Below, piece by piece: positions 34,482 through 47,282 of a stretch of 64,000 bases of DNA. Under the pieces are notes generated by a model. The model saw nothing but the letters and a program-made list of their open reading frames with translations. It was not told the origin of the DNA and did not search any database. How positions within the stretch are numbered: position 1 is the first letter of the stretch; each line of letters starts with the position of its first letter. The DNA comes from Hyphomicrobium sp. (lineage in GTDB: Bacteria; Pseudomonadota; Alphaproteobacteria; Rhizobiales; Hyphomicrobiaceae): the NCBI GenBank assembly GCA_030148725.1, contig JASBSU010000009.1:124001-188000 (forward strand). Reading direction: 5' to 3'. A program made the position numbers and the translations under genes.

Positions 34482-35636
34482 CTAAGGTTTCTCTTCCGTC
34501 TGCGAACGACGAGTGCCGCGTGTCCATTTCCGGCGCAGGACAAGCATATCGTCATTCCCGAACGTTCGCCGATCGTAAACATCGAAATCCGAAGTCGAGA
34601 CGTAGCGGCCGACGTCCGAGATCGCACTGACGGGCGATGTCTCCGCACCATCTGCACCGCGAGCATGGAACAGCACGACCTCATCGACGAGCCCCGCATG
34701 CGAGAACGCACTCCAGGTTGCCGGACCTCCTTCGATAAGCAAGCGTGTGATGCCACGCGCCACGAGGGCCTCCAGCACCGCAGGCAGCCAGAACTCGCCA
34801 CCCACGAGGCGCGTCGGTACGATTTGAGCACCCATCGCCGCAAGCTCTCCGCCGTCTGTGCTCTCTGGACAGACGACCCAGAGCGGATGCACGCGCGCTG
34901 TTTGAGCCAGCTTCGTTTCCGCAAGCCCCTTGAGATCGCGAGCCAGCAGCACGCGCACCGGCGACCGCGCCTCGAGCCCCGGCAGCCGGCACGTCAGCAG
35001 CGGGTTATCGTCGAGAACCGTACGCCGGCCGACGAGGATCGCATCCGACCGCGCCCGCAACAGATGGCCCGCCGCTCGCGCGCCTTCTCCGGTGACCCAT
35101 GCTGGCTTGCCCGCATGCCCGCGCGGCACGCCACCGTCGCCGTCGAGAGCCATCTTCAACGTCACCAGCGGCCGTCGCTCGGTGACGCGCAGGATGTGCC
35201 CCGCCGTTACCCACTGTGCCGCCTCAGCCAGAACGCCACGCTCGACCGAAAGACCCGCCTGCCGCAACCGGTCGAGGCCCCGACCGGCGACACGCGGATC
35301 CGGATCCTCGATCGCGCACACCGCACGCGTCAGGCCCGCTTTGACGATGGCATCCGCACATGGCGGCGTCACGCCGTAGTGCGAACAGGGCTCCAGCGTC
35401 ACGTAAATCGTAGCACCGCGCGCACGTTCCCGGGCGGCGGCGATGGCTTGCGGCTCTGCATGTGGTCGTCCACCCGGCGCCGTACAACCGCGCGCAATCA
35501 CTTCGCCGGTCCGCTCGTCGGCGATCACGGCGCCGACGGCTGGATTGGGAGAAGTCCGCCCAAGTCCGCGCGTGGCGAGCCGCAACGCCATCTGCATCAT
35601 CTGGACGTCGAAGCCGCTACGCTCGGCCAGCTTCAT
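34482..35636 (-). CDS. ribD: bifunctional riboflavin deaminase/reductase RibD
   Basis: A 384-residue enzyme performing the second and third steps of riboflavin synthesis. The N-terminal deaminase has the zinc motifs GRPHAEPQAI and LEPCSHYGVTPPCADAI (about 58-95). The C-terminal reductase (about 155-375) has VTLKMALDGDGGVP and the NADPH-site LLIEGGPATWSAF. The gene starts two bases after nrdR ends. It ends with a basic tail. Confidence 0.95.
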   Translation of the reverse strand: MKLAERSGFDVQMMQMALRLATRGLGRTSPNPAVGAVIADERTGEVIARGCTAPGGRPHAEPQAIAAARERARGATIYVTLEPCSHYGVTPPCADAIVKAGLTRAVCAIEDPDPRVAGRGLDRLRQAGLSVERGVLAEAAQWVTAGHILRVTERRPLVTLKMALDGDGGVPRGHAGKPAWVTGEGARAAGHLLRARSDAILVGRRTVLDDNPLLTCRLPGLEARSPVRVLLARDLKGLAETKLAQTARVHPLWVVCPESTDGGELAAMGAQIVPTRLVGGEFWLPAVLEALVARGITRLLIEGGPATWSAFSHAGLVDEVVLFHARGADGAETSPVSAISDVGRYVSTSDFDVYDRRTFGNDDMLVLRRKWTRGTRRSQTEEKP

Positions 35637-35638
35637 CT

Positions 35639-36163
35639 TCAGTGCTTCTTCAGCGCTGCAGCGTCCGAGACCGCAGTGTCGAACGTCATATGCGTTTCGT
35701 GCACGCCAACCGGATCGGTTGCGATCTCACCGAGTACCTCATGGAAGTCGGCGGCTTCGCGGAAGTCGCGATAAACCGATGCGAAGCGCACATAGGCGAC
35801 AGGATCGAGCCCGCGCAGCGCCTCCATCACGAGCCCGCCGATGGTCGAGGAAGCGACCTCGCTCTCGCCGGCGCTTTCGAGCTGGCGCACCAGCCCCGAC
35901 ACCATACGTTCCACGCGCTCCTGATCGATCGGCCGCTTGCGGAGTGCGACCTCGACGGAGCGGACGAGCTTGTCGCGGTCGAACGGAACCTTGCGGCCCG
36001 AACGCTTGACGACAGTCAGCTCACGCAACTGCACCCGCTCGAAGGTCGTGAAGCGGCCGCCGCAGTCCGGACAGATACGCCGACGACGGATGGCGGCGTT
36101 CTCCTCCGTCGGGCGACTGTCCTTGACCTGCGTATTCTCGCCGGCGCAATACGGGCAGCGCAT
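35639..36163 (-). CDS. nrdR: transcriptional repressor NrdR
   Basis: A 174-residue nucleotide-sensing repressor of ribonucleotide reductase genes. The zinc ribbon [17 protein letters not shown] with [15 protein letters not shown] lies at residues 1-44 and the ATP-cone at about 47-137. AAGGAG precedes the ATG at 36163. It heads the riboflavin cluster. The class II reductase gene nrdJ at 48297 is an obvious possible target, though no clear NrdR box was seen ahead of it. The C-terminal extension after the ATP-cone is usual for alphaproteobacteria. Confidence 0.95.
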
Positions 36164-36292
36164 GGCGCGACACTCCTTGTATTTTTTATCGAGGCTTGTT
36201 GATGCCGATGCCGCCGGCTCCAGCTTCAAGTCGTAGCCGGATTCCGGTGCAGTTGAAATCTCTGCCGCCAATTGGCTGTGCGCGACGACCGT

Positions 36293-36727
36293 TCAAGATC
36301 CACCCGGTTGTTTTTCCTTAGCCTCGAACGCTGCGCGCGCCTGTATCACCTCGTCGAGGTTCTCCTCCGCCCAGTTTCCGAGCTGGCGCGTCAGATCGGA
36401 CAAAGATTGCCCAAGCGCGGTCAGTTCGTATTCGACCCGTGGCGGCACTTCCTGGTGGTCTATCCTATGGACGAGCCCGTTGCGCTCTAGCTCCCTCAGG
36501 GTCTGCGTCAACATCTTCTGCGAGACGCCGCCGATGAGCCGCATGAGATCGCCATTGCGCATCCGGCCGTCGCGCAAGGCGGGCAGGAGCAGCAGCGTCC
36601 ACTTATCAGCGATGAGTTCCAAAATCGCGCGCGATGGACATGCCTGAGCATAGACGCTCGTCGGCTCTGGCTCCGGACCAGAGCGCGAGCCAAAGATACC
36701 GCGGCCGAGCACGAGCTTGCTGACCAA
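36293..36727 (-). CDS. HxlR-family transcriptional regulator
   Basis: A 144-residue winged-helix regulator. The typical opening CPSRAILELIADKWTLLLLP is followed by the recognition helix region LMRLIGGVSQKMLTQTLREL and the wing PPRVEYELTALGQSLS. No ATG lies near the domain start; I choose a TTG at 36727 because GGAG lies eight bases upstream. Many HxlR proteins sense redox-active electrophiles through the N-terminal cysteine, here Cys in AQACPSRA. It is divergent from a flavodoxin-fold oxidoreductase, a classic regulator-target pair. Confidence 0.83.
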   Translation of the reverse strand: MVSKLVLGRGIFGSRSGPEPEPTSVYAQACPSRAILELIADKWTLLLLPALRDGRMRNGDLMRLIGGVSQKMLTQTLRELERNGLVHRIDHQEVPPRVEYELTALGQSLSDLTRQLGNWAEENLDEVIQARAAFEAKEKQPGGS

Positions 36728-44998: not shown

Positions 44999-46111
<1,113 letters not shown>

Positions 46112-46117
46112 ACTGCA

Positions 46118-46148
46118 AACGCTTCGGACCGCGAAAGTCCGAAGCGTT
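46118..46148. terminator. strong hairpin between hemB and lanM
   Basis: Perfect 12-bp arms, AACGCTTCGGAC and GTCCGAAGCGTT, enclose a seven-base loop just after hemB and 22 bases after the convergent lanM stop. No T-run is present, but position and strength suggest a shared terminator. Confidence 0.65.
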
Positions 46149-46170
46149 CATCGTCGTTCATGGCGTCGGC

Positions 46171-46581
46171 TTAGACCAGCTTCAGGAAGTCCTGGCCCTT
46201 CTTGGACTGCAGCTCCGCTTTGTCGAGCGTGCCGTCGTTATCCGGATCGGCGGCCTTGAAGTCCTTTTCGACGATGGCCGTGTACTCGTTGAGATCGAGC
46301 GTACCGTCGTTGTCGGGATCCGCCTTCTTGATCTGCGACTTGCTGAGCTTGCCCTTCAGCTCCTTCGCATCGAGGGTGCCGTCGTTGTCCTTGTCGAGGC
46401 GCTTGAATTCCGTGGCCGCAGCCGCCTTGGCTTCCTTGATGTCAACGGTGCCGTCATTATCCGGATCGAGCGTCTTCATCAGCGCGTCATCGACCTTGAT
46501 CTTTGCGGCCGCCGGCGGCGCGAAAGCCAATGAGCCGGCGCCGAGCAGCAGGCCGAGCGAAAGCACAAACTTTGCAAGCAT
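46171..46581 (-). CDS. lanM: lanmodulin (periplasmic lanthanide-binding EF-hand protein)
   Basis: A 136-residue exported protein with a signal peptide (about 1-26) and four EF-hand loops: DPDNDGTVDIKE (39-50), DKDNDGTLDAKE (63-74), DPDNDGTLDLNE (88-99) and DPDNDGTLDKAE (112-123). Three have proline at loop position 2 and all have Asp at position 9. The spacers between loops are only 12, 13 and 12 residues instead of the usual 20-plus of calmodulin-like proteins. These are the hallmarks of lanmodulin, which binds rare-earth ions with picomolar affinity in methylotrophs. Loop 2 has Lys in place of Pro, and loop 4 begins with Asp where the M. extorquens protein, as I recall it, has Asn. GGAG lies nine bases before ATG 46581. 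Confidence 0.93.
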   Translation of the reverse strand: MLAKFVLSLGLLLGAGSLAFAPPAAAKIKVDDALMKTLDPDNDGTVDIKEAKAAAATEFKRLDKDNDGTLDAKELKGKLSKSQIKKADPDNDGTLDLNEYTAIVEKDFKAADPDNDGTLDKAELQSKKGQDFLKLV

Positions 46582-46760
46582 AGGCAATTCTCCGTTCCGT
46601 TTTTTCCTTGAGCATGCCCAGGGAGATACGCCGCGCATGGCGCAGCATCCACAGCAACAGCGAGTGGCGGTAAGCGCGCCATGACGCCCACCCCCGCGAA
46701 ACGGAGAAAACTTGAGCAAAAGAGGATGCAGCGGACGGAGTTGGCGTCCCGGTCAGGACG

Positions 46761-47282
46761 TTAGCGGCGGACCCTGCGGCGAGGCGCGAACGGATCTTCT
46801 TCCTGCACCGGAGCCTCACCCGTGGCCGCAGCAGCGCCAGGGTCCTCGCCCGAAGGGGCACGCTGAGCGATGCCGCCCTTCGGCTTTTGGCAGTCCGTCA
46901 GCCAGACGTCGAAAACCGGATGCTCGACGGCATTGAGACCGGGACTCTCGGCAAACATCCACCCGGTGAAGATGCGCTTCTCCTGTCCGTCGAGTTGTAC
47001 CTCATCCACTTCCACGAACGAACTCGTCTTCGGCTGCTCCTCGGGCGGACGCGAATAGCAGACGCGCGGCGTCACCTTCAGCGCCCCAAACTGCACGGTG
47101 TTGTTGAGAGGAACCTCGAACTTCGAGGTGCGCGCCGTCACCTTGTCGAGCGCCGAGAACACCGCAACGCCGTTCTCGATGCGATCGGCATACGCCTCAG
47201 CCGCAAAGCACACCGCGACGCCGCTCGCGATCGCCATGATTCGGCAGCTTCGCCCAAACGCGCTCACAACGCTCTCGATCAT
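46761..47282 (-). CDS. DUF2155 exported protein
   Basis: A 173-residue protein with a signal peptide (about 1-32, IMAIASGVAVCFAAEAYA) and a DUF2155 domain: SALDKVTARTSKFEVPLNNT, VTPRVCYSRPPEEQPKTSSF and IFTGWMFAESPGLNAVEHPV followed by YDVW-like FDVWLTDC. The two cysteines probably form a disulfide. The family is widespread in alphaproteobacteria, often next to the NDUFA12-like gene as here (103 bases upstream, same strand). Its function is unknown. A Glu/Pro/Arg-rich tail ends the protein. Confidence 0.87.
   Translation of the reverse strand: MIESVVSAFGRSCRIMAIASGVAVCFAAEAYADRIENGVAVFSALDKVTARTSKFEVPLNNTVQFGALKVTPRVCYSRPPEEQPKTSSFVEVDEVQLDGQEKRIFTGWMFAESPGLNAVEHPVFDVWLTDCQKPKGGIAQRAPSGEDPGAAAATGEAPVQEEDPFAPRRRVRR

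Follow-up and report, generated by a model that had tools for sequence, protein, structure and literature searches.

Lanmodulin is the rare-earth-binding protein of methanol-using bacteria, and it combines picomolar affinity for lanthanide (Ln) ions, Ln3+, with an about 10^8-fold selectivity over Ca2+. It folds into a three-helix bundle with peripheral metal sites; in calmodulin and the calcium EF-hand family the spacers are near 25 residues. Mattocks et al. 2023 (PMC10232371; papers given by PMC number are cited from excerpts) name as hallmarks of lanmodulins four EF hands, a 12-13 residue spacing and, in one loop or more, Pro at position 2; their set comprises 696 putative lanmodulins. In the protein of Methylorubrum extorquens AM1 (Mex-LanM, 6mi5), each of the four loops carries Pro at position 2, Asp is found at position 9, and loop 4, which binds weakly (PMC10232371), opens with Asn; the gene lies within the lut cluster (PMC9260416). 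Hans-LanM, from Hansschlegelia quercus (8dq2), carries Asn at position 1 and Glu at position 9 in EF1-3 and Asp at position 1 in EF4, and forms a metal-dependent dimer (PMC10232371). In the lanmodulin of Methylobacterium aquaticum 22A, the second residue is Thr in loop 1 and Lys in loop 2, and the protein changes conformation when La binds; its gene is clustered with genes unrelated to Ln transport and is induced 4.25-fold by La (Fujitani et al. 2022, PMC9260416).

Here we analyze a lanM gene found in a 64,000-nucleotide stretch of Hyphomicrobium DNA (the window, C27:124001-188000 of the genome denoted G000). The nearest named relative of the host, and the sole relative returned by a contig scan, is Hyphomicrobium sp. 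NDB2Meth4 (taken as G006), a member of the same genus.

The lanM gene of the window and its family

The lanM ORF lies on the minus strand, with an ATG at 46581, 136 codons plus stop, and its end at 46171; a GGAG, noted by eye, is located 8 bases 5' of the ATG. The features of the locus are as follows:

46171..46581, minus strand: lanM (lanmodulin, 136 aa, copy A; stop codon included)
46504..46581, minus strand: signal-peptide-like N-terminus, residues 1-26, with the break between AAA and K (by eye)
46432..46467, minus strand: EF loop 1, DPDNDGTVDIKE, residues 39-50
46360..46395, minus strand: EF loop 2, DKDNDGTLDAKE, residues 63-74, Lys at position 2
46285..46320, minus strand: EF loop 3, DPDNDGTLDLNE, residues 88-99
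46213..46248, minus strand: EF loop 4, DPDNDGTLDKAE, residues 112-123, Asp at position 1
44999..46111, plus strand: hemB (porphobilinogen synthase; PF00490), convergent neighbour
46761..47282, minus strand: DUF2155 gene (PF09923), upstream neighbour on the same strand as lanM, 179 bp gap
46118..46148: perfect 12-bp inverted repeat with a 7-base loop, between the convergent hemB and lanM ends

The first-pass annotation had described a lanmodulin with four 12-residue loops, Asp at position 9 and spacers of 12-13 residues, flanked by hemB and a DUF2155 gene, and this description was borne out. The translated minus-strand ORF contains four 12-residue EF loops separated by 12, 13 and 12 residues, with Asp at position 9 in all of them; the second residue is Pro in loops 1, 3 and 4 and Lys in loop 2. 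PF00490 and PF09923 were matched on either side. By eye, the N-terminus reads as signal-peptide-like (MLAKFVLSLGLLLGAGSLAFAPPAAA followed by K). The inverted repeat at 46118-46148 is a possible two-way terminator for hemB and lanM, but a terminator scan (stem plus T-run) of positions 46050-46800 returned no site; no promoter was found by a promoter scan of the same interval. When the upstream regions of the four lanM genes that lie beside hemB in the genus (see below) were aligned, a TCAAGTTTTC-like stretch was alike in several rows.

The lanmodulin equivalog of NCBIfam (NF053806) matched the protein with 158.9 bits against a cut-off of 135 (E 6.4e-47), and the second and last NCBIfam match at E 0.001 was a calcium-binding effector model that reached 40.5 bits against a cut-off of 120. 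Nine Pfam matches were obtained at E 0.001, the best being EF-hand_1 (2.4e-22) and the rest other calcium-binding types, with no lanmodulin-named family among the nine. Seven calcium-type Pfam models exceeded their own cut-offs, SPARC_Ca_bdg among them and Excalibur by a narrow margin, and calcium loops frequently have Lys as their second residue (PMC12603986). Both features might be seen in a calcium EF-hand protein, either calmodulin-like or a calcium buffer, that had come to resemble lanmodulin by convergence. However, the equivalog score is well above its cut-off, and a phmmer search of PDB sequences with the window protein placed lanmodulins first. The top four were 6mi5 and 8fns (about 2e-33, with identical alignments), 8dq2 (8e-18) and 9pi2 (about 9e-16), and the first calmodulin followed at E 3.7e-7. 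In the PDB, 6mi5 is labelled Lanmodulin, 8fns and 8dq2 EF-hand domain-containing protein, and 9pi2 Ancylobacter 'lanthanum bound protein'; 8dq2 is identified as Hans-LanM in PMC11845868. The short spacers, the Pro at position 2 in three of the four loops and the Ln-type dehydrogenases encoded by the same genome also argue against the calcium-binding origin, which was rejected as extremely improbable given the equivalog score and the distance between Mex-LanM (2e-33) and calmodulin (3.7e-7). The NCBIfam search and the PDB sequence search, the latter covering the M. extorquens and Hansschlegelia proteins, thus gave lanmodulins as the best matches rather than calcium EF-hand families, and all three hallmarks of PMC10232371 are present in the window protein. 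That the gene encodes a genuine lanmodulin, a new sequence of an already known family, is well supported by these comparisons.

Loop residues among lanmodulins

The window protein aligns with Mex-LanM over residues 36-135 and without gaps, and both have four EF loops, Asp at position 9 and Pro at position 2 of loops 1, 3 and 4. The first-pass annotation had singled out the Lys that replaces Pro in loop 2 and the Asp that opens loop 4, giving Asn as the M. extorquens residue at the latter position. Both residues were read in the translation, and Asn stands in the aligned M. extorquens sequence, whose four loops all have Pro at position 2. Another difference from Mex-LanM is the position of the gene, which lies in the window between hemB and the DUF2155 gene and not in a lut cluster. 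The 22A protein, compared by description only, shares with the window protein the Lys of loop 2, and its gene a neighbourhood unrelated to Ln transport, but it has Thr where the window protein has Pro in loop 1 (PMC9260416). Hans-LanM belongs to the same family and has the Asp that opens EF4 in common with the window protein, although the match is only E 8e-18, and at positions 1 and 9 of EF1-3 the window protein is Mex-like and not Hans-like. The closest sequence of these is the NDB2Meth4 lanmodulin (L024), with 88.9% identity over 117 aa and the same hemB-lanM-DUF2155 locus. It shares both the Lys of loop 2 and the Asp that opens loop 4, but the ninth residue of loop 4 is Ser in place of Asp, an indication that this loop is only loosely conserved.

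A loop census placed these residues among 90 distinct lanmodulin-type proteins from the genus, the family and the order. It was derived from 123 matches, 99 of them distinct, by removing before counting nine proteins under 140 bits: L124 (lanmodulin-like, with only three loops placeable), the fragment L008 and seven other EF-hand proteins. Some weaker family matches, e.g., G087:C363 and G022:C10, lie outside this census. Of the 90 proteins, 14 carry Lys as the second residue of loop 2 and 41 have a loop 4 that begins with Asp, the two traits occurring together in 9; Asp opens all four loops in 19. The full pattern, i.e., Pro-Lys-Pro-Pro at position 2 with Asp opening every loop, was counted by eye in 3/90: the window protein, its G006 orthologue and L102. 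Among the 14 proteins with Lys, loop 2 opens with DKD in only four (L001, L014, L109 and L102; by eye), and in the other ten it opens with Glu or Asn. The description of a distinctive EF-hand set therefore holds for the exact pattern and fails for its components: neither residue change is distinctive in itself, since both are common and the Lys has been published for 22A. Each trait is normal variation, and the combination is merely uncommon, so that an unusual EF-hand set is only weakly supported by the loop sequences.

The first-pass annotation had suggested that the number and ranking of high-affinity sites may differ; what the two residues might do can be approached through published variants. 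Among the few lanmodulins studied, Pro prevails at position 2, followed by Lys and Ala, and the Pro-to-Ala change in the M. extorquens protein kept Ln affinity and lowered the selectivity over Ca (2025 peptide paper, PMC12603986). By analogy, the Lys of loop 2 would be expected to lower the Ln-over-Ca selectivity at that site rather than its affinity. For position 1, the same paper states that the first residue does not take part in binding in native-order EF peptides, and its tightest binder was a reversed-sequence EF4 peptide in which Asp replaced Asn. Hence, the Asp of loop 4 could strengthen the weak fourth site or have no such effect.

The hemB locus and lanthanide-type dehydrogenases in the genus

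The first-pass annotation had reported no xox genes, which is true of the 64,000-nt window but not of the genome. Ten matches to PQQ alcohol dehydrogenases were found in the genome, four of them over the TIGR03075 cut-off, and the only one on C27 lies outside the window, at 35073-36710, so that no PQQ methanol dehydrogenase was found in the window. These enzymes were classified by the second residue past the catalytic Asp, which we take to be the lanthanide ligand. The motif is DYD in the C27 and C38:36956 enzymes, DFD in that of C40 and DYA in that of C38:24544; as judged from these motifs, the first three are of the lanthanide type and the last is MxaF. The best PDB matches agree with this: XoxF 6oc5 for the C27 and C40 enzymes, methanol dehydrogenase 7o6z for C38:36956, and MxaF-type structures for C38:24544. 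The C27 xoxF is adjoined by a methanol-related cytochrome (TIGR03874) and a MoxJ-like protein (TIGR03871), an xoxFGJ-like set located about 133 kb from the window lanM on the same contig. A search for xoxF thus yielded this cluster and two further Ln-type dehydrogenases; the immediate neighbours of lanM include no xox gene and no Pfam-recognised uptake gene. For a Hyphomicrobium-containing community, the excerpt of PMC8999231 reports that no lanmodulin was detected.

As a separate observation, a lipoprotein-like EF-hand protein is encoded about 15 kb from the Ln-type dehydrogenase of C40 (G000:C40:41068-41427; L004:1402-1929). It scores 42 bits to the lanmodulin model, and two of its spacers are 12 and 19 residues; similar proteins occur in the same genus (L009, L010, L011, L016 and L020).

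The hemB-lanM-DUF2155 order is common to four of the eight genomes of the genus (G000, G001, G002 and G006), i.e., the locus is kept in half of the genus. The four lanM genes at this locus form one clade (100/98), in which those of G000 and G006 are sisters (100/98); deeper branches of the tree are weak because the alignment has only 109 columns. In the G001 and G002 orthologues, loop 2 has Pro as its second residue and loop 4 starts with Asn; both residues are also kept by the proteins of a second lanmodulin type, copy B (see below), in G000, G001 and G006. By parsimony on the tree, the Lys and the Asp therefore look derived at the hemB locus, and the presence of Asp at position 1 of loop 4 elsewhere in the family implies that it arose more than once or was lost. 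The lanM genes at this locus are under purifying selection: dN is 0.059 and dS 0.891 between G000 and G006, the nearest orthologues, and dN is 0.041 and dS 0.818 between G001 and G002, although with dS near 0.9, close to saturation, the ratio is approximate.

The other four genomes differ at this spot. In G005, a lanM fragment matching residues 79-127 (loops 3-4) lies between hemB and the DUF2155 gene (L178:4921-5079, C138), and no PQQ dehydrogenase was found at E 1e-60 in this 2.5 Mb genome. In G004 the spot is occupied by a DUF7676 gene, and in G007 the interval is about as long but gave no match to lanM; both genomes encode MxaF plus two dehydrogenases in which the D-x-D motif is not intact. 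The spot is out of view in G003, where the contig ends near DUF2155. The best match of G003 to the lanmodulin model is 25.8 bits, and yet an XoxF-type enzyme is present (DQWDYDGVN), so that lanM is not required for XoxF. Each of the four genomes with intact lanM encodes at least three D-x-D-type dehydrogenases, with three locus-less matches left unclassified. This pattern, seen in eight related genomes with G003 as an exception, fits a link between lanM and lanthanide methylotrophy. Two further observations were made in these genomes. The XoxF-like proteins L159 (G007:C9:236063) and L160 (G004:C2:68845) carry the motif DVWGFDGVN, with Gly in place of what is presumably the catalytic Asp; and on G001:C1 (L070:8627-13422) mxaF and the lanM of copy B are divergently oriented and about 2.5 kb apart, the distance in G006 being about 100 kb.

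Three lanmodulins in one genome and their possible role

In addition to the window gene (copy A), two further proteins of this genome exceed the cut-off of NF053806, and both are 46-60% identical to copy A. Copy B (C60:507-890; 168.9 bits) resembles Mex-LanM in that every loop has Pro as its second residue and loop 4 opens with Asn. Copy C (C2:188907-189290) scores 153.7 bits and has two degraded loops, its loops 2 and 3 being ETDKDGKITAKE and DPGKHGSLTKDE. In the family sample, 23 of the 103 genomes have a protein over the cut-off, and three copies were found only in G000, with two in G001 and in G006. In the order sample, 48 of 397 genomes match at E 1e-20; two or more matches occur in 10 of these 48 and three in two of them (G000 and G429). 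Several lanmodulin copies are hence uncommon, but not unique. The three copies are unlikely to be an assembly artefact: completeness of the genome is rated at 96% and contamination at 0.22%, the other copies are only 46-60% identical to A, and copies A and B and the flanks of copy C are syntenic with G006, although copy B is located 0.5 kb from a contig end. We recognised no report of several lanmodulin genes per genome in the literature searched, which is weak evidence, as subscription papers and preprints fell outside its scope. The 'two LanM' and 'second LanM' of the excerpted review PMC11845868 are the Mex and Hans proteins and not paralogues, and no lanM copy number per genome was seen in the excerpt of the methanotroph survey PMC12482762.

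The genes that flank copy C are present in G006 without copy C. The distance from the end of an ABC-F gene to the next shared gene is about 3.0 kb in G000 (L067:8299-11332, C2) and about 0.5 kb in G006, and the extra DNA includes a 91-bp repeat of the 3' end of the ABC-F gene (97.8% identical) and, adjoining lanM-C, an ORF whose product has a DpnII-MboI-type restriction endonuclease domain (PF18742). Weak tree support (84/86) joins copy C to a copy from G048, away from copies A and B, and both are long branches. This arrangement suggests, and does not prove, that copy C was gained by insertion. The G048 copy with which it groups is the second lanmodulin-like protein of that genome (L075; G048:C2:302352), in which loop 3 is degraded and loop 4 altered.

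The window gene very probably encodes a true lanmodulin of the NDB2Meth4 genus, and its likely role is that of a periplasmic Ln buffer or shuttle for XoxF. Sequence family, four-loop architecture, synteny, purifying selection and the Ln-type enzymes of the genome speak for this reading. By analogy with the relatives that have been studied, the protein would be exported to the periplasm, would stay largely unfolded without metal and would fold around three, possibly four, lanthanide ions; once folded, it would buffer or shuttle Ln ions, thereby feeding or protecting the XoxF system and limiting free Ln3+. The shuttle role is a working model that is not proven even in the model organisms, since deletion of lanM in two other strains caused no methanol growth defect (PMC9260416).

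The presence of two further lanmodulins allows another assignment, in which the window protein is tuned as a four-site sponge for storage or detoxification and the shuttle role is left to the canonical copy B. Copy B indeed keeps the Pro and Asn residues, all four loops of the window protein open with Asp, as in 19/90, both changes look derived in a clade in which G001 and G002 keep Pro and Asn, and the Asn-to-Asp change gave the tightest binder in the reversed EF4 peptide (PMC12603986). However, such tuning would depend on only two residue changes, the first residue is said not to bind in native-order peptides (PMC12603986), Asp 9 of loop 4 is lost in G006, and Asp opens loop 4 in 41/90 proteins. 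We know of no difference in role for lanmodulins with an Asp-opening loop 4, and overall we regard the sponge assignment as quite unlikely and retain the buffer or shuttle role for the window protein. A further reading, which we consider rather doubtful, is that the three lanmodulins form a graded periplasmic lanthanide set, with the canonical C60 protein, the window copy with all-Asp loops and a non-Pro loop 2, and the C2 protein, with two degraded loops and probably gained on a small insertion, differing in site number or in Ln/Ca or light/heavy selectivity, for three Ln-type dehydrogenases or for a split between delivery and storage.

The window gene is an ordinary lanmodulin, and what is less ordinary is the occurrence of three different lanmodulins in one genome. 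Lanmodulins are used in rare-earth recovery and separation, so that new sequences are useful raw material. The hemB locus offers a natural contrast between Pro 2/Asn 1 (G001 and G002) and Lys 2/Asp 1 (G000 and G006), which allows the effect of the two residues on selectivity to be tested in natural backgrounds within one clade. This contrast and the three-copy genome are the parts worth following, and, as growth on methanol was not impaired by single lanM deletions in other strains (PMC9260416), the three-copy genome could help to reveal the cellular role of lanmodulin.
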